A DNA stretch of 64,000 nt from a virus. The notes beneath the pieces are model-generated. The model did not search any database, was not told the DNA's origin, and saw nothing but the letters and a program-made list of their open reading frames with translations. Made by a program: the position numbers and the translations under genes. This document shows positions 53,346 through 63,885 of this stretch, one piece after another. The stretch is taken from positions 150,201 to 214,200 of IMG/VR virus record IMGVR_UViG_3300032931_001151. The stretch is one strand, 5' to 3'. The first letter of the stretch is position 1. Each line of letters starts with the position of its first letter.

Positions 53346-55598
53346 ATGTCAGTTAAAATGCTTCAAGAATATACTAGATATTCAAAATACTCAAAATACT
53401 TGCCAAATGAGAAAAGAAGAGAGACTTGGGAAGAACAAGTAAATAGAGTATTTAGTATGCACGAAGCAAATTTTGGAGATAAATTAAAAGATATTAAAGA
53501 AGATTTTGATTTTGCTAAATCAATGGTAATGAAAAAAAGAGTGTTAGGTTCTCAACGAGCATTACAATTTGGTGGAAAACCAATACTTGATAAGAATGCT
53601 AAAATGTACAACTGTACCGTTAGTTATGTAGATAGACCTAGATTTTTCCAAGAATGCATGTATTTATTATTGTGCGGATGTGGTACGGGATTCTCGGTAC
53701 AAACCCATCACATACAAAAACTTCCTGGAATTATGGCAAGAACTAATGGTGAAAAAACTTATGAAATTCCCGATAGCATTGAAGGTTGGGCGGATGCGGT
53801 TGGAATTTTAGTATCTTCATATTTTACGAATGATCAACCATTTAAAGACTATATTGGATATAAAGTAAATTTTGATTATAGTAAGATTAGGCCAGCCGGA
53901 GCTTCTCTCTCTTGGGGTGGGAAGGCTCCAGGACCTAAAGGATTACAAGCCTCTTTGAATAAAATAGAAGAAATTTTTGAAAATGTTTTAAAGTCTTCAG
54001 AAAAAGTAAGTTCCAAGTTAAGACCAATTGACGCATATGATATGATAATGCACTTATCCGATGCCGTAATTAGTGGAGGTGTGCGTCGAAGTGCGTGTAT
54101 TTCAATATTTTCCGCCGATGATATGGAAATGGCAAATGCTAAAACCGGAGATTGGTTTATAAAGAATCCGCAAAGAGGTCGATCAAATAATTCAGCTTTA
54201 CTAATTCGTAAGGAAACCACTAAAGAAGACTTTACAAAGTTAATGAAATCGGTTAAAGAATTTGGAGAGCCTGGATTTATTTGGAGCGATAATAAAGAAT
54301 CATTATATAATCCATGTGTTGAAATTAATATGTATGCTTATAATGACGAAGGAAAGTCTGGTTGGCAATTTTGCAACCTTTGTGAAATCAATATGAAAAA
54401 ATGCAAGACAAGAGAAGAGTTTTTAGAGTCATGTCGAGCCGCAGCAATTTTAGGAACATTGCAAGCCTCATATCATAAATTTGATTATTTGGGGGAGATA
54501 TCGGAGCAAATTGTTAAAAAAGAGGCATTATTAGGATGCTCAATGACTGGAATGATGGATAGTCCCGATATAGCATTTAATCCCGAAATACAAAAAGAGG
54601 GTGCTCAATTAATTCTTGATGTAAATGAAAAAATAGCTAAAATACTCGGAGTTAATAAATGTGCAAGAGCCACATGTGTTAAACCTGCTGGTAGTACAAG
54701 TTGTCTTCTTGGTTCGGCTAGTGGAATTCATCCACATCATGCTCGTAGATATTTCCGTAGAGTTCAAGCAAATGTAAATGAGGCACCTCTTAAGTATTTC
54801 CAGGCCCATAATCCAAGAGCCGTAGAAACTTCGGTTTGGAGTAATACCAAAACCGATATGGTAATTTCGTTCCTTTGTGAAGTTCCAGATGGTGCTAAGA
54901 TAAAAAATCAAGTAAATGCTATTCAACTATTAGATCATGTAAAATTGACCCAACAAAATTGGGTTGAATTTGGTACAAGAAAAGATGCACCCGTTGCATC
55001 TTGGCTAAGACATAACGTATCAAATACTATAACGGTAAAGGACGATGAGTGGGATGGAGTAACCGATTATATTTACGAAAATAGAAAATGGTTCGCCGGA
55101 ATATCACTATTGCCAATGTCGGGAGATCTTGATTATCCACAAGCGCCATTTACCACCGTACTTGAACCTAAAGAAATAATGGCTCAATATGGAGAAGGAT
55201 CGCTATTTGCTTCTGGTTTAATCGTTGATGGATTAAAAGCATTTAATGACAATCTTTGGGCAGCTTGCGATTGCGCTTTAGGAATAGGAGAAAAACTTTC
55301 ACTAACTCCCGAACAAGCAAAATTGACCAATGGGAAACTTAAAGCATTAGTTGATAAGTTATCGGAGAAAGAAGATTGGATTCGTAGATTTAAGCAATTT
55401 GCTGAAAGATATTGTAATGGCGATTTAAGAAGATGCTCACATCTTTTGAAGCACGTTACTAATTATAAACTTTGGGTGGATTTGAAGAGAGAATACCAAC
55501 CAGTTGATTGGTCATTATGCTATGAAGAAGACTTTAAAATAGATGTTACTACTTTGGCGGGCCAAGCATGTAGCGGCGGTCAATGTGAAATGAAGTAA
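53346..55598 (+). CDS. nrdJ: Adenosylcobalamin-dependent ribonucleotide reductase (class II)
   Basis: 750 residues, the size of monomeric class II triphosphate reductases. It makes dNTPs with B12 as radical source and so works with or without oxygen, if the host supplies cobalamin. Seen: MYNCTVSYVDRP (redox Cys), LLLCGCGTGFSVQ, GGVRRSACISIFSADD, the catalytic N-x-C-x-E as FCNLCEIN, and the terminal Cys pair in GQACSGGQCEMK that reloads the active site. TAGGAG precedes the ATG. T4 uses class I and class III enzymes instead. Confidence 0.93.
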   Translation: MSVKMLQEYTRYSKYSKYLPNEKRRETWEEQVNRVFSMHEANFGDKLKDIKEDFDFAKSMVMKKRVLGSQRALQFGGKPILDKNAKMYNCTVSYVDRPRFFQECMYLLLCGCGTGFSVQTHHIQKLPGIMARTNGEKTYEIPDSIEGWADAVGILVSSYFTNDQPFKDYIGYKVNFDYSKIRPAGASLSWGGKAPGPKGLQASLNKIEEIFENVLKSSEKVSSKLRPIDAYDMIMHLSDAVISGGVRRSACISIFSADDMEMANAKTGDWFIKNPQRGRSNNSALLIRKETTKEDFTKLMKSVKEFGEPGFIWSDNKESLYNPCVEINMYAYNDEGKSGWQFCNLCEINMKKCKTREEFLESCRAAAILGTLQASYHKFDYLGEISEQIVKKEALLGCSMTGMMDSPDIAFNPEIQKEGAQLILDVNEKIAKILGVNKCARATCVKPAGSTSCLLGSASGIHPHHARRYFRRVQANVNEAPLKYFQAHNPRAVETSVWSNTKTDMVISFLCEVPDGAKIKNQVNAIQLLDHVKLTQQNWVEFGTRKDAPVASWLRHNVSNTITVKDDEWDGVTDYIYENRKWFAGISLLPMSGDLDYPQAPFTTVLEPKEIMAQYGEGSLFASGLIVDGLKAFNDNLWAACDCALGIGEKLSLTPEQAKLTNGKLKALVDKLSEKEDWIRRFKQFAERYCNGDLRRCSHLLKHVTNYKLWVDLKREYQPVDWSLCYEEDFKIDVTTLAGQACSGGQCEMK

Positions 55599-57672: not shown

Positions 57673-57700
57673 TTGACAAACTTAAAAGGTATGCTAGAAT
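57673..57700 (+). promoter_or_regulatory. Sigma-70 promoter of the tRNA operon
   Basis: TTGACA (57673-57678), 16-base spacer, and TAGAAT with a TGC extension. It sits back-to-back with the promoter of the leftward membrane-protein gene. RNA would start near 57707, upstream of the leader ORF. Confidence 0.8.
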
Positions 57701-57724
57701 GAAAGAGAAGAAAAAAGAAATCAA

Positions 57725-57732
57725 TATAAATA
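57725..57732 (+). promoter_or_regulatory. T4-type late promoter in the tRNA leader
   Basis: TATAAATA, 19 bases before the leader ORF start. RNA would start near 57738 at the RBS, so late transcripts may translate the leader poorly. Confidence 0.55.
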
Positions 57733-57751
57733 ACACTAAAGGATATAAATC

Positions 57752-57868
57752 ATGACCACTCAAACTAACATTAAGCTTCGCTCGGATAGCAAGCCCTTAT
57801 CATGGGATTCCCATAGTATGTTAGTGTCCCTCTTTAGCATTATGCCAAGCAAGGGACTCCTAGGTTAA
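57752..57868 (+). CDS. 38-residue leader peptide of the tRNA operon
   Basis: AAAGGA lies 8 bases before the ATG, and the frame ends in TAA on the first arm of an attenuator. Eight of 38 codons are serine, and they use TCG, AGC, TCA, TCC and AGT, one for each of the five serine anticodons (CGA, GCT, TGA, GGA, ACT) in the downstream tRNA array. Most other codons (ATT, AAG, CTT, CTC, CTA, TTA, CGC, GAT, TGG, CAT, TTT, CCA, ACC, ACT, ATG) also match phage tRNAs. Several of these (CTC, CGC, TCC, AGC) are rare in the AT-rich genes around. The peptide itself probably has no function; a ribosome stalled in it would. Expression is unproven. Confidence 0.6.
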   Translation: MTTQTNIKLRSDSKPLSWDSHSMLVSLFSIMPSKGLLG

Positions 57869-57922
57869 GATTCGGACACATCCGATAACTCTTAAACCTA
57901 GGGCCAAAACCCTAGGTTTTTT
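57826..57922 (+). promoter_or_regulatory. Transcription attenuator with mutually exclusive hairpins
   Basis: Arm A, CCTAGGTT (57859-57866), covers the leader's last codons and stop. Arm B, AACCTAGG (57895-57902), pairs perfectly with A (with AAG/CTT extending it), enclosing a small hairpin (57872-57885). B also forms the 5' side of a terminator stem (57894-57903 with 57910-57919) followed by six T. An upstream stem, GTCCCT/AGGGAC (57826-57831 with 57852-57857), looks like a pause hairpin. A ribosome at the stop would cover A and allow termination; one stalled upstream would leave A free to take B and let RNA run into the tRNAs. Confidence 0.65.
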
Positions 57923-57979
57923 CGTATTTGACAACTATATAATTGTAGAATAGAAGACATACTCTTTGAGTGTGTCTAT

Positions 57980-58070
57980 GGAGTAGACAATAGGAAAAGT
58001 TCCTAGAGAGTTTGCTAAACTCATCGTGCCTTTTATTAGGCATTCAGTGCGAATCTGAGCTACTCCACCA
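57980..58070 (+). tRNA. tRNA-Ser (GCT)
   Basis: Acceptor GGAGTAG/CTACTCC with encoded CCA, anticodon GCT (loop TTGCTAA), long variable arm, T loop TGCGAAT. First tRNA after the attenuator; a 10-bp hairpin (57955-57977) just before it may guide processing. Discriminator base is A, unlike the G typical of bacterial tRNA-Ser. Confidence 0.88.
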
Positions 58071-58072
58071 AT

Positions 58073-58150
58073 GGGCAAAAGTCTAGCTGGTATGCTAGTA
58101 AACGTCTGATAAGCGTTTTTAGGTGAGTTCGATTCTCACTTTGCCCACCA
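58073..58150 (+). tRNA. tRNA-Ile (GAT)
   Basis: Acceptor GGGCAAA/TTTGCCC, anticodon loop CTGATAA, T loop TTCGATT, CCA encoded. Only two bases after the previous tRNA. Confidence 0.92.
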
Positions 58151-58218
58151 TTCCCTTTAATAGAGTTGGAGTTGAAACTATTTTAGCTGAGGTTAAGCTA
58201 ATTAAAACCTCAAGTCAT

Positions 58219-58294
58219 CAGGCCGTAGTGTTTAACAGTAGCATGGCTCGTTTGGGGCGAGGTGGAGGGAGTGCAAATCTCCCCGGCTTGACCA
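58219..58294 (+). tRNA. tRNA-Pro (TGG)
   Basis: Acceptor CAGGCCG/CGGCTTG with one G-T pair, anticodon loop TTTGGGG, T arm GGGAG/CTCCC, CCA encoded. The anticodon stem has one mismatch. Confidence 0.82.
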
Positions 58295-58309
58295 TTTTTA
58301 GTAATTCAT

Positions 58310-58383
58310 ACCGATGTAGCATAAGTAGCAAATGCGAAAGATTGTCGATCTTTAGATAGTGGGTGCAAGTCCCATCATCGGTG
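58310..58383 (+). tRNA. tRNA-Asp (GTC)
   Basis: Acceptor ACCGATG/CATCGGT, anticodon loop TTGTCGA, discriminator G as expected for Asp. CCA is not encoded. Confidence 0.88.
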
Positions 58384-58444
58384 CTTTTATTAACAATAGA
58401 ATTAATATATGATATAATGTACTTTCACTATTAGAAAGGATTAT

Positions 58445-58714
58445 ATGAAAGATTCAAAATATGGCATATTTCAAGAATATATAAGATGCTATAGAGATAT
58501 ACTCATTTATATAAAAAAGTATGAACATGATAGCGATGAAATCACTAAGGATAGATTTGAAAGTAAAAGGTTAAAATTAATAGATATGGAAGAAAACGAA
58601 TCGTTTATTGTTAATATTCTATCTATATTAGAAATGCCTAGCACACAAGATATTTGTATTACGAGTAGTTTCCCAAGTAATATTTTGAAATGCACTACAT
58701 ATAATAAAAATTAA
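58445..58714 (+). CDS. Small hypothetical protein inside the tRNA array
   Basis: 89 residues, helical and charged, with no motif I recognise. AAAGGA stands before the ATG. An extended -10 box (TGATATAAT, 58410-58418) precedes it, and its ATATAAT can pair with ATTATAT at the start codon, so expression may depend on where the RNA begins. It splits the tRNA array into two groups. Confidence 0.65.
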   Translation: MKDSKYGIFQEYIRCYRDILIYIKKYEHDSDEITKDRFESKRLKLIDMEENESFIVNILSILEMPSTQDICITSSFPSNILKCTTYNKN

Positions 58715-58730
58715 TTTATATAGAATTTAT

Positions 58731-58805
58731 GCCGGGGTCGTATATGAGGTAATACGCAAGTCTGAAGAACTTGATCAACGGATTCGAGCGCCGTCCCCGG
58801 CACCA
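58731..58805 (+). tRNA. tRNA-Phe (GAA)
   Basis: Acceptor GCCGGGG/CCCCGGC, anticodon loop CTGAAGA, CCA encoded. Confidence 0.92.
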
Positions 58806-58850
58806 TTTACATAGGGTTACAACTCCCATAGTTAAAAGTTGAAACTTTGT

Positions 58851-58927
58851 GGGTTGCAAGCATAAATGGAAGGATGCCATCGATTCTTAATCGATAGAGT
58901 AGGGTTCGAATCCCTAGCGACCCACCA
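58851..58927 (+). tRNA. tRNA-Lys (CTT)
   Basis: Acceptor GGGTTGC/GCGACCC, anticodon stem ATCGA/TCGAT with loop TTCTTAA, T arm TAGGG/CCCTA, CCA encoded. Confidence 0.92.
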
Positions 58928-58930
58928 CAT

Positions 58931-59019
58931 GGATTAGGCAATTGCAGGAGATGCAACATTGTTTGGAAAACAATTGGGGCCTTTACGGGCCTTTGGAGCG
59001 TAACCAAGCTAATCCGCCA
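58931..59019 (+). tRNA. tRNA-Ser (GGA)
   Basis: Acceptor GGATTAG/CTAATCC, anticodon loop TTGGAAA, long variable arm, T arm CTTGG/CCAAG, discriminator G, CCA encoded. Confidence 0.92.
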
Positions 59020-59024
59020 TTTTT

Positions 59025-59114
59025 GGAAATACGGGAACATAGTTGTTCAAATAGTTTCGAAAACTATCCTTGGTCTTAATTGGCCTAACCGTGCGATTCG
59101 GTGTATTTCCTCCA
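59025..59114 (+). tRNA. tRNA-Ser (CGA)
   Basis: Acceptor GGAAATA/TATTTCC, anticodon loop TTCGAAA, long variable arm with GGTC/GGCC, CCA encoded. Confidence 0.92.
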
Positions 59115-59148
59115 ACTTCGTGATATAATAAATAGTACGAGAGGCAAT

Positions 59149-59937
59149 ATGAATATAACAATTGATCACGATAACGATGGTTTTGGCGCACAAATGATGG
59201 GTATTATATCTGCTATAGCATATGCAAAATTTCATGAACATACTTATTATCACACACCAAGAAAAAATATAAAATTGGTTGGGATAGAAGAACCTCAGAA
59301 TGCGGAGATTGATAAAATTAATGAGTTTTTAAACACATTTATGAAAAATTTGGGAATAAATTTAATGCCATCTGAAATTTTACTTGACGGAGAGGGTAAA
59401 CCAAAATTTACATGTGAAGTTAGGCCACATTTTCATGACGAAATATATTACAACGGATCAAACTATTATACGAAAGAATTTAATACATATCTAAGACAAA
59501 ATTATCCACTTACTAAACCTAACTATTATGAAAATATGCATAATATAGCAATTCACATTAGAAGGGGATCTGATATAGATTCACCATCGCAACGGCATAA
59601 TAGATGGATTGATTCAAACGTTTATAATTGTCTTATAGACTTAATACACGTAAAATATCCAAATAGTATTATACATGTATTTTCTTGGGGTGATCCAGAA
59701 ATAGAGATAAAACCGTTCATAGTATTTCATTCATCAAATAGTGGTTCAACATTTTTAGATGACTATAATGCATTAGTTTGGGCCGACATATTGGTAGTGG
59801 GGTCAAGTACTTTTAGTCTTTCTGCCGCTCTTATAAACAATAATAAAATAATAATTGATGGGGCATTTTATAAATTAAATGGTATGTACATACCAAATGA
59901 ATGGATGCAAAATTTTAAAGAATTTTATGTAATGTGA
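59149..59937 (+). CDS. Fucosyltransferase-like protein in the tRNA array
   Basis: 262 residues from the ATG at 59149 (GAGAGG upstream; the longer frame overlaps a tRNA). DNDGFGAQMMGIISAIAYAK (about 8-27) and NIAIHIRRGSDIDSPSQRHN (about 137-156) are the glycine motif and H-x-R-R-G-x-D-type GDP-fucose site of the GT11/GT23/O-fucosyltransferase superfamily; the third motif is VGSSTFSLSAALIN near the end. It is a distant relative of the protein at 42712-43551. An extended -10 box (TGATATAAT) lies at 59121-59129. Why a sugar transferase lies among tRNAs is unclear; tRNA regions collect accessory genes. Confidence 0.78.
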   Translation: MNITIDHDNDGFGAQMMGIISAIAYAKFHEHTYYHTPRKNIKLVGIEEPQNAEIDKINEFLNTFMKNLGINLMPSEILLDGEGKPKFTCEVRPHFHDEIYYNGSNYYTKEFNTYLRQNYPLTKPNYYENMHNIAIHIRRGSDIDSPSQRHNRWIDSNVYNCLIDLIHVKYPNSIIHVFSWGDPEIEIKPFIVFHSSNSGSTFLDDYNALVWADILVVGSSTFSLSAALINNNKIIIDGAFYKLNGMYIPNEWMQNFKEFYVM

Positions 59938-59986
59938 AATATTATAGAATAAAGAATTATTCTAAAGATTATGAAAAAATTAAAAT

Positions 59987-60078
59987 GGATCGGTGAGTGA
60001 GCGGTCAAAACTAGAAATTTACTAAATTTCCGATCCCAGAAATGGGGTCCGTAGGTTCGAATCCTACCCGATCCGCCA
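59987..60078 (+). tRNA. tRNA-Ser (ACT), unusual anticodon
   Basis: Acceptor GGATCGG/CCGATCC, anticodon stem GAAAT/ATTTC, loop TTACTAA, long variable arm GATCCC/GGGGTC, T arm GTAGG/CCTAC, discriminator G, CCA encoded. The arms are perfect, but an ACT anticodon is very rare in bacteria and phages; it would read AGT. Confidence 0.82.
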
Positions 60079-60081
60079 TAT

Positions 60082-60174
60082 GGAGAGAACAACCGAGAAT
60101 AGTTTTCGGCACTGATTTGAAATCAGAGGGTTCCGTGCAAACGGGATAAGGTGCGATACCTTGGCTCTCCACCA
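60082..60174 (+). tRNA. tRNA-Ser (TGA)
   Basis: Acceptor GGAGAG/CTCTCC, anticodon loop TTTGAAA, long variable arm TCCGT/ACGGGA, CCA encoded. It completes the set of serine codons. Confidence 0.88.
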
Positions 60175-60176
60175 TC

Positions 60177-60204
60177 TTGACAATATATTAAAATATGCTA
60201 TAAT
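60177..60204 (+). promoter_or_regulatory. Sigma-70 promoter of the CTA-anticodon tRNA
   Basis: TTGACA, 16-base spacer, and TGCTATAAT, ending 10 bases before the tRNA. It is nearly identical in form to the promoter at 57673-57700, so this tRNA has its own strong start. Confidence 0.82.
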
Positions 60205-60214
60205 GAACTCACAT

Positions 60215-60288
60215 GGGTCATTGACCGAGTGGCACAGGTGATGGGTTCTAAACCCATTTAGAAGTGTTCAAATCACTTATGACTCACA
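60215..60288 (+). tRNA. Amber suppressor tRNA (CTA anticodon)
   Basis: A complete short-variable-arm cloverleaf: acceptor GGGTCAT/ATGACTC (one G-T), D arm ACC/GGT, anticodon stem ATGGG/CCCAT with loop TTCTAAA, variable TTAG, T arm AAGTG/CACTT with loop TTCAAAT. The anticodon CTA (60248-60250) reads UAG. The 3' end is ACA; full CCA is not encoded. The charged amino acid cannot be told; the short variable arm argues against Ser, Leu or Tyr. Confidence 0.85.
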
Positions 60289-60290
60289 AT

Positions 60291-60298
60291 TATAAATA
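60291..60298 (+). promoter_or_regulatory. T4-type late promoter
   Basis: TATAAATA between the amber tRNA and the next gene pair, 21 bases before an ATG with a strong RBS (AAAGGAG). Confidence 0.65.
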
Positions 60299-60319
60299 AA
60301 CACTAGCAAAGGAGCTAAT

Positions 60320-60430
60320 ATGATTGCTTAGAAGAAATTAGAATATGGGTAGGTAGGTTGTCGTGGACCTCCTATTTGTTATTGGTTGAATAATCTCAAA
60401 TTAACACCAATAACAAGGAATATAATATGA
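60320..60430 (+). other. Leader frame with two in-frame amber codons
   Basis: AAAGGAG precedes an ATG whose frame meets TAG at codon 4 and codon 11, then runs open to a TGA that overlaps the next gene's ATG (ATGA at 60427-60430). Two hairpins lie inside it, including GTTATTGGT/ACCAATAAC (60378-60386 with 60406-60414) right before that gene's RBS. If the adjacent CTA tRNA is active, ribosomes could read through, open the hairpins and restart on the next gene. Chance is a fair alternative. Confidence 0.35.
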
Positions 60431-60855
60431 ATAAAAAAGAATTGATTGCTAAGATTAAAGAAGAAATTAAAGTCACTTCCGAGATCCTTAGAATAAATAA
60501 AAAGACTCACAAACAAAACCAAAGAATGTATTCACAAGGCACAAGACCTTTTGAGTTAATTCAACTTTATCCGTTTGATGTGGAAAAGGTAACACCTTTT
60601 AATCATAATTATGTAAAAGTAATTGATGGAAAACATTATTGGAACTATAGTTACAACGAAACTCCATGCAATGCGGGCATTGAGTCGGCAAAGTGCCACT
60701 TGACTTGTCTACATATTGTGTATAATATGCTTCGTACAAAAAAGACGCATTGCCACAACATTGAAAGGAATGATTATTATGTTAAATATTTTGATAAGCT
60801 CATACAAGGATATCTTAGCCAAGTGGAAGAGGAACAAAATGTTGTCGTATCCTGA
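60427..60855 (+). CDS. Hypothetical protein next to peptidyl-tRNA hydrolase
   Basis: 142 residues. Basic helical N-terminus (KKELIAKIKEEIKVTSEILR), then a Tyr/Asn-rich middle and a Cys/His-containing segment NAGIESAKCHLTCLHIVYNM. No family recognised. AAGGA lies before the ATG, next to a 9-bp hairpin. Its 3' end overlaps the PTH2-like gene by 17 bases, so the two are probably made together. Confidence 0.68.
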   Translation: MNKKELIAKIKEEIKVTSEILRINKKTHKQNQRMYSQGTRPFELIQLYPFDVEKVTPFNHNYVKVIDGKHYWNYSYNETPCNAGIESAKCHLTCLHIVYNMLRTKKTHCHNIERNDYYVKYFDKLIQGYLSQVEEEQNVVVS

Positions 60856-61210
60856 ACCACCATCTTTAGAAGAAGCACTAAAACAAGTTAGAATGTATGT
60901 TTTAGTAAGAAGGGAAATTTTACCTTTAGTCCATTGTGTTTGTCAATGTACACATGCGGTAGCCGAATTTATTCATTATCATCAAAATGATAATACTAAA
61001 TTATGGGTTACATGTGAAAAAACTTTAATTGTTTTAGAAGCGACGGAAGACCAAATAAAAGAAAAAATGATTTGGTTTGCTGACCGTCATATGAATTATC
61101 AACCTTTTTGTGAACCGGATATGAATAATGTTCTAACGGCGGTTGCGTTTCAACCAATTACAAAACAAATTGGTAATGAAGTTTTTGGTAACTTAAAGCT
61201 TCTAAAATAA
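60839..61210 (+). CDS. PTH2-type peptidyl-tRNA hydrolase
   Basis: 123 residues from the ATG at 60839 (GAGGA upstream; the longer frame covers the previous gene). The pattern follows archaeal/eukaryotic-type PTH2 enzymes, which cut peptide from stalled peptidyl-tRNA: MYVLVRREI, CVCQCTHAVAEFI (family QCAHA), LWVTCEKTLIVLEATEDQIK, then CEPDMNNVLTAVAFQP (family D-x-G-x-T then T-x-x-A-x-x-P) and NEVFGNLKLL at the end. The usual catalytic Lys before QCAHA appears as His. Its place among the tRNAs suggests it frees tRNA lost by ribosome drop-off. Confidence 0.78.
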   Translation: MLSYPEPPSLEEALKQVRMYVLVRREILPLVHCVCQCTHAVAEFIHYHQNDNTKLWVTCEKTLIVLEATEDQIKEKMIWFADRHMNYQPFCEPDMNNVLTAVAFQPITKQIGNEVFGNLKLLK

Positions 61211-61223
61211 TATTTAAAAATGA

Positions 61224-61262
61224 CCCGTCCAAGTATAAATAAGTTTATAACACTTGGACGGG
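61224..61262 (+). promoter_or_regulatory. RBS-hiding hairpin with an internal late promoter
   Basis: CCCGTCCAAGT (61224-61234) and ACTTGGACGGG (61252-61262) form a perfect 11-bp stem ending 8 bases before the HNH gene's ATG, over its RBS. The loop begins with TATAAATA (61234-61241). RNA from the late promoter would start near 61247, without the 5' arm, and be translatable; RNA read from upstream would be folded and silent. T4's I-TevI is controlled in this way. Confidence 0.78.
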
Positions 61263-61270
61263 ACACTATT

Positions 61271-61897
61271 ATGAATGAAAATGTACTTAGAAAAGATAAA
61301 CAAAAATTACATCTTATTAAAAAATTAAGATGTATTATGGATCATGGCGGAAAATGTAAACATTGTGGAAAGGATTTAATAATAAACCACTACGATGCAG
61401 ATTTTCATCATATAGACCCTTCGATTAAAGAAGTTGTGGGGCATTCTTTAATGAATGGGCATTATTACAAAATAAAAAAAGAAGTTGATAAGTGTATTTT
61501 ATTATGTGGATCGTGTCATAGGTATGAACATTGTAAATGGAAAGATTGGATTAATCACAAAGAAGAATTACTTTCTTTAGCAAAAAATATTCATAATAGG
61601 AGAACCATAGAAGATACACAACAACGTATTAAAAAAATTAAAGAATTATATTTAAGCGGTAATGGTATAAGACAAATAGCAAAAATATTAGGAATACCTG
61701 TATCCTCTGTTGGATATACAATTAAGAAATTGGGTATAGGTAGACCATTTATTACTAAAGTGTCTAATGAAGAATTGATAGAATGTTTTAAGCAAGGAAT
61801 GACAGCAAGTGAGGTTTCAAAAAAATATAATTGTTGTTATGCAAACTGTTGTAGAAAACATAAAAAATGGAGAAATAAAAAAAGTAAGCTGCTATAG
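61271..61897 (+). CDS. HNH homing endonuclease with two DNA-binding helix-turn-helices
   Basis: 208 residues from the ATG at 61271. HNH core: CKHCGKDLI (about 34-42), DADFHHIDP (about 48-56), CILLCGSCHRYEHC (about 79-92). Two C-terminal helix-turn-helix segments, SGNGIRQIAKILGIPVSSVG (about 135-154) and QGMTASEVSKKYNC, would give site choice. Like other free-standing phage homing enzymes, it likely cuts a related genome lacking it. Its last 10 bases, including the TAG stop, are the first bases of tRNA-Thr, so the tRNA is the insertion boundary. Confidence 0.88.
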   Translation: MNENVLRKDKQKLHLIKKLRCIMDHGGKCKHCGKDLIINHYDADFHHIDPSIKEVVGHSLMNGHYYKIKKEVDKCILLCGSCHRYEHCKWKDWINHKEELLSLAKNIHNRRTIEDTQQRIKKIKELYLSGNGIRQIAKILGIPVSSVGYTIKKLGIGRPFITKVSNEELIECFKQGMTASEVSKKYNCCYANCCRKHKKWRNKKSKLL

Positions 61898-61961
61898 TAT
61901 AATGGTATTATGCGATCTTGGTATGATTGAGACGGAAGTTCGATTCTTCCTGGCAGCACCA
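61888..61961 (+). tRNA. tRNA-Thr (GGT)
   Basis: Acceptor GCTGCTA/TGGCAGC, anticodon loop TTGGTAT, T arm GGAAG/CTTCC, CCA encoded. The 5' acceptor strand overlaps the end of the HNH gene. Confidence 0.9.
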
Positions 61962-62027
61962 TTCAAGTTACACTTTTTTCTAAGAGTTTTGTGTTTCCAA
62001 GCAAGCAAACGAAAAAACTTAGTGCAT

Positions 62028-62101
62028 ACAGTAATAGTATAACGGAATTATTTTCCACTCCAAACGGAAAGATCGTGGTCCGACTCCACGTTACTGTGCC
62101 A
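62028..62101 (+). tRNA. tRNA-Trp (CCA)
   Basis: Acceptor ACAGTAA/TTACTGT, anticodon loop CTCCAAA, discriminator G, CCA encoded. One mismatch in the anticodon stem. Confidence 0.88.
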
Positions 62102-62106
62102 ATCAT

Positions 62107-62182
62107 ATCCGTTTAGCTCATTAGGAAGAGTTTCTTGGTCCTAACAAGAAGGTAGTAGGTTCGAATCCTACAACGGATGCCA
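62107..62182 (+). tRNA. tRNA-Arg (CCT)
   Basis: Acceptor ATCCGTT/AACGGAT, anticodon stem TCTTG/CAAGA with loop GTCCTAA, CCA encoded. Confidence 0.9.
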
Positions 62183-62193
62183 AAATTTAGTAT

Positions 62194-62267
62194 ACCCGGT
62201 TCATCTAATGGAAGGATATAAAACTACGAATTTTATCATTTAGGTTCGAATCCTAAGCCGGGTGCCA
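62194..62267 (+). tRNA. tRNA-Arg (ACG)
   Basis: Acceptor ACCCGGT/GCCGGGT, anticodon stem TAAAA/TTTTA with loop CTACGAA, CCA encoded. A34 is normal for this bacterial isoacceptor (edited to inosine). Confidence 0.9.
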
Positions 62268-62269
62268 TT

Positions 62270-62394
62270 TCTCTAGATGCATTAAAGGATTACACCAAAC
62301 AGTGGATTGTAGGTTCAACTCCTACCAAGTGAAAGCTTGTAGCTTAATTGGCAAAGCAACCGTCAAAAACATCTTTTAAACTTTTTGCTAGAGA
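62270..62394 (+). pseudogene. Two tRNA-like remnants in reversed order
   Basis: A good T ar​m (GTAGG TTCAACT CCTAC, 62309-62325) follows only a stunted anticodon arm (CAC/GTG), and about 10 bases later comes a D-arm-like 5' half (GCTT...AAGC near 62342-62357) with no matching 3' half. TCTCTAG (62270-62276) and CTAGAGA (62388-62394) also pair across the whole region. These look like decayed tRNA pieces; a permuted (3'-before-5') tRNA is a remote option. Confidence 0.4.
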
Positions 62395-62405
62395 ATCTTT
62401 TTCAT

Positions 62406-62495
62406 GCGGATGTGTTGGAATTGGCAGACATCATAGTTTTAGACACTATGGCGAAATTAAGTAGCGTGCAGGTTCAACTCCTGTCGTCCGCACCA
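62406..62495 (+). tRNA. tRNA-Leu (TAG)
   Basis: Acceptor GCGGATG/CGTCCGC, anticodon stem ATAGT/ACTAT with loop TTTAGAC, long variable arm, discriminator A, CCA encoded. Reads CTA. Confidence 0.9.
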
Positions 62496-62501
62496 AATTG
62501 T

Positions 62502-62634
62502 TGTCGTGTAGCTCAGTGGTTAGAGCGAATTTTTGAGGAAACGAGAAATTGTTTCTAGGTCGCAAATAGTGACCGTTCAAAATTGTGCGGGTAAAAATGT
62601 CTTTAGTGACATGGTTCGATTCCCCCTACGACAA
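62502..62634 (+). tRNA. Interrupted tRNA-like gene with two insertions
   Basis: Acceptor TGTCGTG/TACGACA and a textbook D arm (GCTC/GAGC) are followed by stem AATTT/AAATT (62528-62532, 62580-62584) closing a 47-base loop in place of 7. The T stem is split: GGG (62589-62591), a 21-base hairpin insert (62592-62612), then GG TTCGATT CCCCC. Removing the insert restores a perfect GGGGG/CCCCC T arm. Removing 40 bases from the loop would restore a normal length; the anticodon depends on the exact joint (GTT, GAT or GAG). May be spliced, or dead. Confidence 0.5.
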
Positions 62635-62646
62635 CATCTTTTTCAA

Positions 62647-62732
62647 GCGTCTATGGAGAAATAGAAGACTCGTGAGACTAAGAATCTCATTCCGTAAATG
62701 GAGTACAAGTGCAAGTCTTGTTAGGCGCACCA
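62647..62732 (+). tRNA. tRNA-Leu (AAG)
   Basis: Acceptor GCGTCTA/TAGGCGC, anticodon stem TGAGA/TCTCA with loop CTAAGAA, long variable arm, CCA encoded. An A34 leucine tRNA is uncommon in bacteria. Confidence 0.85.
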
Positions 62733-62747
62733 TTTTGTAAAATCCAC

Positions 62748-62835
62748 GGGGGCGTGGTGAAATAGAAAACACACAACGCTTAAAACGTTGCGGATAGAAA
62801 TATCCTTGCAGGTGCAAGTCCTGTCGCCCCTACCA
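62748..62835 (+). tRNA. tRNA-Leu (TAA)
   Basis: Acceptor GGGGGCG/CGCCCCT, anticodon stem CAACG/CGTTG with loop CTTAAAA, long variable arm GGATA/TATCC, CCA encoded. Confidence 0.9.
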
Positions 62836-62840
62836 ATTAC

Positions 62841-62914
62841 GCCGATTTAGTATAGTGACATTACAATTGATTCGTATCCAATAAACGATGGTTTAATTCC
62901 ATCAATCGGCACCA
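62841..62914 (+). tRNA. tRNA-Thr (CGT)
   Basis: Acceptor GCCGATT/AATCGGC, anticodon loop TTCGTAT, T arm GATGG/CCATC, CCA encoded. One mismatch in the anticodon stem. Confidence 0.85.
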
Positions 62915-62915
62915 G

Positions 62916-63344
62916 TTATTCGTGAAATAGTTTCTTTACTTTATTCGTAAGTTCAACATTTTCTACTAATTTAGGAATGACCATTCCAAATTCTCTACCT
63001 TTAGTTTTAATATAAGGAAATGCAATCATAAGAATATCGAGTAACTCTCTATATTTTCTAAAGTTTTCTATAAATTGTTTTTTATCTTTTATCTCTTTTA
63101 TGTTGTTTAAATTGGACAATAAAGAAATAAAACAAACTAAATCATCGTTATTCTTAAAGTGATCTAATGATATATTGGTAGAGTTGGTTAAATCGTCGTC
63201 AATTTGTGATTTTGAGGGTACTAATGGTTCTATTTTTTTAGGAGTTGGTCTTGACTTCCATTTATCAAAAAAACCTTCAATTAATTGTAAATCTTCTGTT
63301 AAACTTGATAAATCTTCATTTAATTCTTGTTGTTCTAATGGCAT
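62916..63344 (-). CDS. Hypothetical late protein
   Basis: 142 residues from the ATG at 63344, chosen for the GGGGAG site and the late promoter at 63364-63371; a longer frame reads through the promoter. Acidic N-terminus (ELNEDLSSLTEDLQLIEGFF), a Pro/Lys linker, then helices ending MVIPKLVENVELTNKVKKLF. No family recognised. It runs opposite to the tRNAs and ends one base past tRNA-Thr (CGT). Confidence 0.7.
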   Translation of the reverse strand: MPLEQQELNEDLSSLTEDLQLIEGFFDKWKSRPTPKKIEPLVPSKSQIDDDLTNSTNISLDHFKNNDDLVCFISLLSNLNNIKEIKDKKQFIENFRKYRELLDILMIAFPYIKTKGREFGMVIPKLVENVELTNKVKKLFHE

Positions 63345-63357
63345 AATGACTCCCCTA

Positions 63358-63385
63358 TTGACATATTTATAATGAGGACTATAAT
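63358..63385 (+). promoter_or_regulatory. Sigma-70 promoter
   Basis: TTGACA, 16-base spacer and TATAAT, 23 bases before the 76-residue gene. The spacer contains the oppositely directed late promoter of the gene to the left. Confidence 0.78.
63364..63371 (-). promoter_or_regulatory. T4-type late promoter
   Basis: TATAAATA on the minus strand, 19 bases before the ATG at 63344, inside the spacer of the rightward sigma-70 promoter, so early and late transcription here may exclude each other. Confidence 0.7.
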
Positions 63386-63408
63386 AAATATAAGAAAAGG
63401 GGTATAAA

Positions 63409-63639
63409 ATGAGTACTCTAGAACTCTTAAATAATGAAGACCTAGATTGCCTAGATGGTATGCTCATCTTTGGCATGAATGGGGATATTAATCGGTATAA
63501 CGTGTGTAAACTTAAGGTTGATGAATATTTAGTGGAAGAAGCCATTAAGGAATATGGATTAAAAGATGCTTTAAAAGAAAAAGTAATTACCCAAAAAGAG
63601 GCTAACGAGTATCTTGAAAAGCATAAGTTTGTTGCATAA
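63409..63639 (+). CDS. Small early hypothetical protein
   Basis: 76 residues, acidic then helical: DLDCLDGMLIFGMNGDINRY followed by a Lys/Glu-rich helix. A consensus-like sigma-70 promoter and an AAGGGG site precede it, so it is probably expressed early. No family recognised. tRNA-Val begins one base after its stop. Confidence 0.68.
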   Translation: MSTLELLNNEDLDCLDGMLIFGMNGDINRYNVCKLKVDEYLVEEAIKEYGLKDALKEKVITQKEANEYLEKHKFVA

Positions 63640-63640
63640 T

Positions 63641-63714
63641 GGGCGTTTAGTTTAATGGAAAAACATCTCTTTTACACGGAGAATTCGGGGGTTCGATTCC
63701 CTCAATGCCTACCA
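63641..63714 (+). tRNA. tRNA-Val (TAC)
   Basis: Acceptor GGGCGTT/AATGCCT, anticodon stem TCTCT/GGAGA with loop TTTACAC, T loop TTCGATT, CCA encoded. Confidence 0.88.
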
Positions 63715-63718
63715 ATAT

Positions 63719-63804
63719 GCGGAGTGAAGTCCAATGGCCGGACATCAGATTGTGGCTCTGAGTGCGAAAGCACATTGCGGGTTCGAATCCCGTCACTTCG
63801 CCCA
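63719..63804 (+). tRNA. tRNA-His (GTG) with a long variable arm
   Basis: Acceptor CGGAGTG/CACTTCG plus the histidine-specific extra G at -1 (63719) paired with C73, then CCA. Anticodon stem TCAGA/TCTGA with loop TTGTGGC. The variable region is about 15 bases with a hairpin GTGC-GAAA-GCAC, whereas tRNA-His normally has about five. Confidence 0.82.
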
Positions 63805-63809
63805 TTTAC

Positions 63810-63885
63810 GGTGGATTAGTTATTCGGCAATAACAGTAGTATCATAAACTACACAAAAAGGGTTCGACTCCCTTATCCACTACCA
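63810..63885 (+). tRNA. tRNA-Met (CAT)
   Basis: Acceptor GGTGGAT/ATCCACT, anticodon stem GTAGT/ACTAC with loop ATCATAA, CCA encoded. A lysidine-modified tRNA-Ile with the same anticodon cannot be ruled out. Confidence 0.82.

Follow-up and report, generated by a model that had tools for sequence, protein, structure and literature searches.

The stretch of DNA analysed here (the window, 64 kb in length) comprises bases 150201-214200, the last 64 kb, of a 214,200-base IMG/VR virus record derived from a metagenomic phage, labelled G000. In addition to a family B DNA polymerase, a topoisomerase II and a class II ribonucleotide reductase (RNR; 53346-55598), the window encodes at least 22 tRNA genes, which extend from 57978 to the end of the record, where the array runs off. 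An earlier note on this DNA had placed a promoter, a 38-codon open reading frame (ORF) with a ribosome-binding site and three RNA arms, A, B and C, ahead of these genes; all were located correctly, and the features of the region are as follows.

57673..57700, plus strand: sigma-70-like promoter, TTGACA-16 nt-TAGAAT with TG before the second hexamer, called from 11/12 consensus matches only
57752..57868, plus strand: 38-codon leader ORF, MTTQTNIKLRSDSKPLSWDSHSMLVSLFSIMPSKGLLG*, with a Shine-Dalgarno-like AAAGGA upstream
57858..57871, plus strand: arm A (CCTAGGTT, extending to ..AAG), the 5' half of the antiterminator, covering the last leader codons and the stop, as the earlier note held
57872..57886, plus strand: 15-nt hairpin TTCGGACACATCCGA between arms A and B, from folding
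57888..57903, plus strand: arm B (AACCTAGG), which pairs with A (antiterminator) or C (terminator), from folding
57894-57919, plus strand: intrinsic terminator B:C upstream of the tRNA genes, with a 10-bp stem, a loop of 6 and a U-run
57910..57925, plus strand: arm C (CCCTAGGTTT) and U-run, with a T-rich tail, completing the intrinsic terminator
57978..58070, plus strand: tRNA-Ser(GCT), the first gene of the array, read from the sequence (acceptor stem GGAGTAG/CTACTCC, anticodon stem-loop GAGAGTTTGCTAAACTC, 3' CCA) and missed by ARAGORN at its defaults
58073..63885, plus strand: the remaining tRNA array with interspersed ORFs (Ile, Pro, Asp, Phe, Lys, Ser(GGA), Ser(CGA), Ser(ACT), Ser(TGA), tRNA(CTA), Thr, Trp, Arg, Arg, Leu x3, Thr, Val, His and Met)

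ARAGORN called 18 of the tRNA genes in the window at its default settings; relaxed thresholds added Ser-CGA and Ser-GGA, while Ser-GCT and Ser-TGA were read by eye. The array carries five serine tRNAs (GCT, GGA, CGA, ACT and TGA) and the leader ORF eight serine codons of five kinds (TCG, AGC, TCA, TCC and AGT), exactly as had been claimed. A tRNA with the anticodon CTA (60215-60287, plus strand), designated Pyl by ARAGORN, may read amber codons; CTA tRNAs are also found in the arrays of G018, RHph_I1_18, AciJM_313 and XacN1. Within the window array lies a Y RNA-like element (62270-62397, plus strand; Rfam YrlA, 35.4 bits against a gathering score of 69, E 5.6e-5) that resembles a circularly permuted tRNA, the T arm preceding the D arm, and at 62502-62635 (plus strand) there is a tRNA-like gene with an insert of ~40 nt (Rfam tRNA, 24 bits), called by ARAGORN with the intron option only. 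Enlarged anticodon loops in tRNAs at loci L002 (4710-4807) and L029 (minus strand, 3283-3187), to which ARAGORN assigned the anticodons tggt and ggtg, may mark four-base decoders.

The promoter-like site alone proves little, because the region contains such sites about as often as shuffled sequence does (43 versus 40.2). TTGACA-type sites precede the leaders of several relatives as well. A separate motif, TTTTGACAACTTTATATAAGTAG.TTGA.TTATG, recurs before tRNA genes and just past the attenuator terminators (57928 in the window; 15362, 15029, 11235 and 5882 on the minus strand of L029), and could be a promoter-like or a processing element. The earlier note's proposal that A:B and B:C are mutually exclusive is borne out by folding, the A:B duplex having a predicted stability of about -16 kcal/mol. 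In the predicted window switch B is sequestered with a probability of 0.87 when a ribosome is stalled 12 codons before the stop, compared with 0.16 when the ribosome is at the stop, and dinucleotide shuffles of the sequence between the ORF end and B abolish the effect (p=0.01). The sensing zone of the window leader comprises codons 2-32, within which a stalled ribosome leaves arm A free. A structural filter that demanded a terminator, an ORF end 15-45 nt before it and a competitor duplex of -11.5 kcal/mol or better, and made no reference to tRNA genes, selected just 3 sites when both strands of G000, 454 kb, were scanned: the window leader and two 3' ends of long genes.

A DNA search with the window leader against cultured phages returned short matches only, none of them to the leader itself. 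Scans with one protein at a time identified no relatives for the neighbouring 428-aa protein or the topoisomerase, and one for the DNA polymerase. The productive query was the class II RNR and its alignment, which yielded 17 and then 80 loci, and tRNA arrays in the corresponding records were located with the Rfam tRNA model. Eight other metagenomic phages in this RNR group have the same arrangement, in unrelated sequence, before tRNA arrays. The leader architecture is present in G000, G001 (2), G005 (2), G013, G014, G018, G048, G052 (2) and G061, and in the cultured phages CcrColossus, CcrSwift and KVP40. In the closest relative, G001 (RNR 79%), there are two arrays, each preceded by a leader that bears no obvious resemblance in sequence to the window leader and has a hairpin at the same place as the one between A and B in the window; MTTCTYNKIANKGCAEGTILGGAV precedes Gly, Glu, Tyr, Lys, Thr, Asn, Ala, Ile, Arg and Met tRNAs, and MNTLSTQSWHQSQPSVSRLDRLVPFIDNGGSGF precedes Ser, Thr, Val, Arg, Ile, Pro, Asp, Phe and Trp tRNAs. 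One G005 leader, MRNILESLSSSSLWHLPRRPV, is followed by Leu, His, Leu, Ser, Leu, Ser, Ser and Trp tRNAs, and the second (G005-A) is broad and lies upstream of a 33-tRNA array. In G052, leader A (MTNLVNNSVLSLSLYYLLSDGSVLNGWTDK) precedes Tyr x2 and Leu x7, and leader B (MTNTIASIVAVSAAAVAAGVAADCEGGDEGTMSSGGIG) precedes Val, Gly, Ala, Cys, Asp, Leu and Glu; MTNLVNNSVLSLSLYYLLSDGS... stands before Tyr/Leu tRNAs and ...VAVSAAAVAAGVAADCEGGDEG before Val/Gly/Ala/Cys/Asp/Glu tRNAs. For G061, G048, G014, G018 and G013, the leaders either obey this rule or amount to near-complete lists of residues. The tRNA operons of G052 and G061 (L125, L129 and L124) are themselves sorted by codon class, one containing almost exclusively tRNAs for GNN codons (Val, Ala, Gly, Asp and Glu) and another only those for Leu and Tyr.

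Among tRNA-rich cultured phages, which served as controls, two unrelated groups display the arrangement: KVP40-like Vibrio phages and phiCbK-like Caulobacter/Brevundimonas phages, some genomes of the latter having two leaders. The KVP40 leader, MTHSNTHSDMILRSDFLRSEFVYLANPCAKQEWSPQT (19 amino acids), lies upstream of 28 tRNAs in a region kept in 50 Vibrio phage records, and in five aligned relatives the block from the stop through A, B and C is nearly invariant while the coding part diverges. KVP40.0315 (NC_005083, 178766-178930), annotated antisense across this leader, is probably a spurious gene. The phiCbK-like leader MTYRNNVRQIRVRQFN..., matched by 26 records, precedes Tyr, Phe, Val, Ile, Gln, Asn and Arg tRNAs, and Swift, Karma and BL57 have an additional leader, MFALSHNSLSTKAASPA..., before Pro, Thr, Lys, Leu, His, Ala and Ser, to which the first leader of CcrColossus is similar. 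The existing annotation of CcrSwift already places a terminator before each of its two arrays, and records the first leader as hypothetical gp079. In an alignment of 11 Caulobacter/Brevundimonas phages, cells with double changes retain pairing in 98.3% of cases for A:B and in 100% for B:C, and at one position of CcrColossus A, B and C all change together. Judged from this alignment, both helices are maintained through compensatory changes in the Caulobacter group. Related regions share an ORF, a terminator and the alternative pairing despite a complete turnover of sequence, and one family shows compensatory changes in both of its helices. Not every tRNA array is preceded by this design: the scan found no leader before the arrays of G027, G035, G059, G023, G054, RHph_I1_18, S-CRM01, DSS3P8, ChuuTotoro, AciJM_313, T4, T5 or XacN1.

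For most leaders folding indicates that a finishing ribosome masks A and a stalled one leaves it free. In the simulated leaders the terminator forms with a probability of 0.87-1.0 when the ribosome is at the stop, and a stall in the first 60% of the ORF sequesters B (0.58-0.86) before C exists in 16/16 of them; for CcrSwift op1 and leader A of G052 the simulation fails to separate the two states clearly. Compared with shuffled sequences the switch is significant across leaders (combined p=9e-5), G052 leader A, G061 and CcrSwift op2 being among those that do not exceed their shuffles. At equilibrium the full-length terminator still forms with A free in many leaders (P 0.8-1.0 in several; 0.50 in the window), and the switch would therefore have to rely on kinetics. 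In classical attenuators, too, a kinetic decision is assumed. In the Caulobacter group and in G052-A a ribosome at the stop codon would mask A less directly, because A lies 7-15 codons before that codon.

The composition of the leaders mirrors that of the operons that they precede. In the sensing zone of the window leader 93% of residues correspond to amino acids carried by tRNAs of the array, compared with 66±9% in windows of the phage's own genes (p=0.001). For 14 leader-operon pairs, from which G013 was left out as its array offers six tRNAs before the record ends, the match to the leader's own operon exceeded that in all 200,000 permutations, the comparison here being with the leaders of other phages. 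The ORFs of G005-A, G013 and CcrColossus op1 had first been spotted by eye with their composition in view. The structure-only filter, combined with tRNA proximity, gave 15 hits, all of them such leaders, and again 0/200,000 permutations reached the observed match, with the qualification that the thresholds were fixed after the first leaders were known and that a few of the 15 hits come from related phages. This filter later recovered G005-A and G013 unaided, and did not recover CcrColossus op1, the terminator of which is weak. When leaders were compared with windows of each phage's genes the combined p was ~8e-14. If A must be free for antitermination, matching codons should precede A by no less than one ribosome footprint, and this is what is observed: residues match in 243/304 positions (80%) in the sensing zones compared with 57/114 (50%) after them (Fisher 4e-9; paired Wilcoxon p=0.0014).

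In two-operon genomes each leader is suited mainly to its own operon. Swapping the leaders within such genomes lowers the match in most cases, for example from 0.83/0.62 to 0.30/0.31 in G001 and from 0.92/0.55 to 0.05/0.21 in CcrColossus; broad tRNA sets such as that of G005-A accept any leader. Where arrays are near complete the leaders are unusually diverse, with 15 kinds of amino acid in 16 residues in G018 (p=0.0005) and all 20 kinds in 42 in G013 (p=0.002). The claim in the earlier note that leader codons match the tRNAs of the array holds for amino acids. A match of exact codons is not significant for the window leader alone, where 12/20 anticodons are covered compared with 10.5 expected (p=0.28). 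Over all leaders, coverage of isoacceptors and codons is 130 compared with 117.2±5.4 expected (p ~0.01). An exact codon-to-anticodon match was accordingly demoted as a basis for the claim: leaders match their tRNAs strongly in amino acids and only to a modest degree in individual codons.

The sequence thus contains a leader ORF built from residues of the operon's tRNAs, an intrinsic terminator and a competing arm at, or shortly before, the stop codon. We read this arrangement, with a probability of roughly 0.8, as a putative ribosome-mediated transcription attenuator of a phage tRNA operon. The attenuator interpretation of the earlier note is supported, and appears largely right, because the related regions and the composition of the leader both proved favourable to it. 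When charged tRNAs are plentiful, the ribosome translating the leader would reach the stop and cover A, such that B:C would form and transcription would end after ~215 nt (OFF). If any of the required charged tRNAs were scarce, the ribosome would stall upstream, A would capture B before C is made and the polymerase would enter the tRNA genes (ON). The tRNA block would then be made only when the cell lacks tRNAs, for example through decay of host tRNAs or a tRNA-cutting defence during infection, and would be switched off once the supply recovers; with two tRNA blocks in a genome, a separate sensor for each would be possible. Two papers describe phage tRNAs that counter tRNA-cutting defences (PMC10264068, PMC11555353), and this known role fits the proposed trigger without proving it.

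A missing tRNA, an uncharged tRNA and a shortage of amino acid are indistinguishable as signals. It could therefore be argued that the leader gauges the general rate of translation, or amino-acid starvation, rather than the supply of tRNA, its composition merely broadening the sensor. Such a role would be in keeping with the modest match at the codon level and with the leaders of complete arrays (KVP40, G013, G018 and G005-A), which hold almost every amino acid. Specialized operons, however, have specialized leaders, and the leaders of two-operon genomes differ as their tRNAs do, which a general sensor would not need; we thus regard this explanation as unlikely. It is considerably less probable that the hairpin is an ordinary terminator, of the kind common at gene borders, that insulates the array from upstream transcription, with the array's own promoter following it and the small ORF being incidental. 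In several RNR-group phages a promoter-like TTGACA motif does lie directly downstream of the terminator, where it could equally serve as a bypass of the switch, but a composition-matched ORF recurs in unrelated sequence, a competitor of the 5' arm of the terminator is repeatedly located at the end of that ORF and both helices covary. Conservation of parts of the peptide within families (TYRNNVQQIRVRQFN; LRSDFLRSEFVYLANP) might instead reflect a functional micropeptide, acting for example on ribosomes or tRNAs; this is very improbable, as by inspection the families lack mutual similarity, the AGRS kept in the Caulobacter group is nothing other than arm A (GCGGGCC) and composition tracks the tRNAs of each operon. 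Least probable is an arrest peptide or a drug or metabolite sensor of the erm/tnaC type, in which short leaders and attenuation also occur but a specific nascent chain stalls the ribosome, since inspection revealed no arrest motif common to the leader peptides of different families, and it is the list of residues that recurs, not their order.

The attenuator that we propose shares its logic with those of the amino-acid operons (trp, his, leu, ilv, thr and phe), as modelled by Elf and Ehrenberg in 2005 (PMC1183508): a leader ORF enriched in codons for the product that the operon provides, an antiterminator and a terminator that exclude one another, and a predicted sign in which shortage of charged tRNA leads to read-through. 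Features of trp/his-type systems that are found in the sequence are an enriched leader ORF (at the amino-acid level), a terminator before the first structural gene and an exclusive antiterminator, albeit one that does not exceed shuffles in every member. In contrast to the trp and his operons, however, the phage operon encodes the tRNAs themselves, in a virus, and the amino acids sampled by a leader range from a few to all 20. In further contrast, A is at or near the stop and there is only one competing pair (three arms). The classical 1:2 pause/protector hairpin, through which termination occurs when the leader is untranslated, is not seen as such in the window, where the minimum free energy structure of the full leader pairs part of the ORF upstream of A. 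T-box riboswitches likewise turn tRNA-charging genes on in response to uncharged tRNA, but do so by binding the tRNA directly through a conserved RNA fold, whereas the phage leader is an ORF; no T-box was detected in the window in Rfam scans at the gathering score or at an E-value of 5.

In the part of the literature searched there is no description of phage tRNA genes controlled by leader-peptide attenuation, in agreement with the earlier note. The papers on tRNA loss and tRNA-targeting defences, in which phage tRNAs replace depleted or cut host tRNAs, deal in the sections concerned with the tRNAs and not with leader control of the array, and terms for leaders or attenuation were not found there (PMC10264068, PMC11555353). 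Similarly, the relevant portions of the phiCbK genome paper make no mention of a leader or attenuator, list tRNAs as the only functional RNAs identified with Rfam and state that Tyr and Thr tRNAs are absent from these phages (PMC3556154); ARAGORN calls Tyr and Thr tRNA genes in CcrColossus (L153, 11366) and CcrSwift (L161, 505), the leaders of which contain Tyr and Thr. As far as we found, viral tRNA operons as the target, leaders that sample many residues and separate leaders paired with separate operons are new.

Why phages carry tRNA genes is a question of decades' standing, argued mainly from codon-usage statistics. This study suggests that in several unrelated phage lineages the leader ORFs are probably condensed lists of tRNAs through which depletion of a tRNA class, by host tRNA decay or anticodon-nuclease defence, would be sensed by ribosome stalling and the class replaced on demand, with separate sensors for separate operons; this would constitute an apparently undescribed class of regulation. 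The leaders aid annotation, as illustrated by the Tyr and Thr tRNA genes above, and may find use as multi-codon sensors of ribosome stalling. A built-in sensor of this kind, listing the tRNAs that its operon encodes, would show that the expression of phage tRNAs is tied to their shortage in the cell, and opens the depletion hypothesis to direct tests in phages that can be cultured: CcrSwift and CcrColossus on Caulobacter crescentus, and KVP40.
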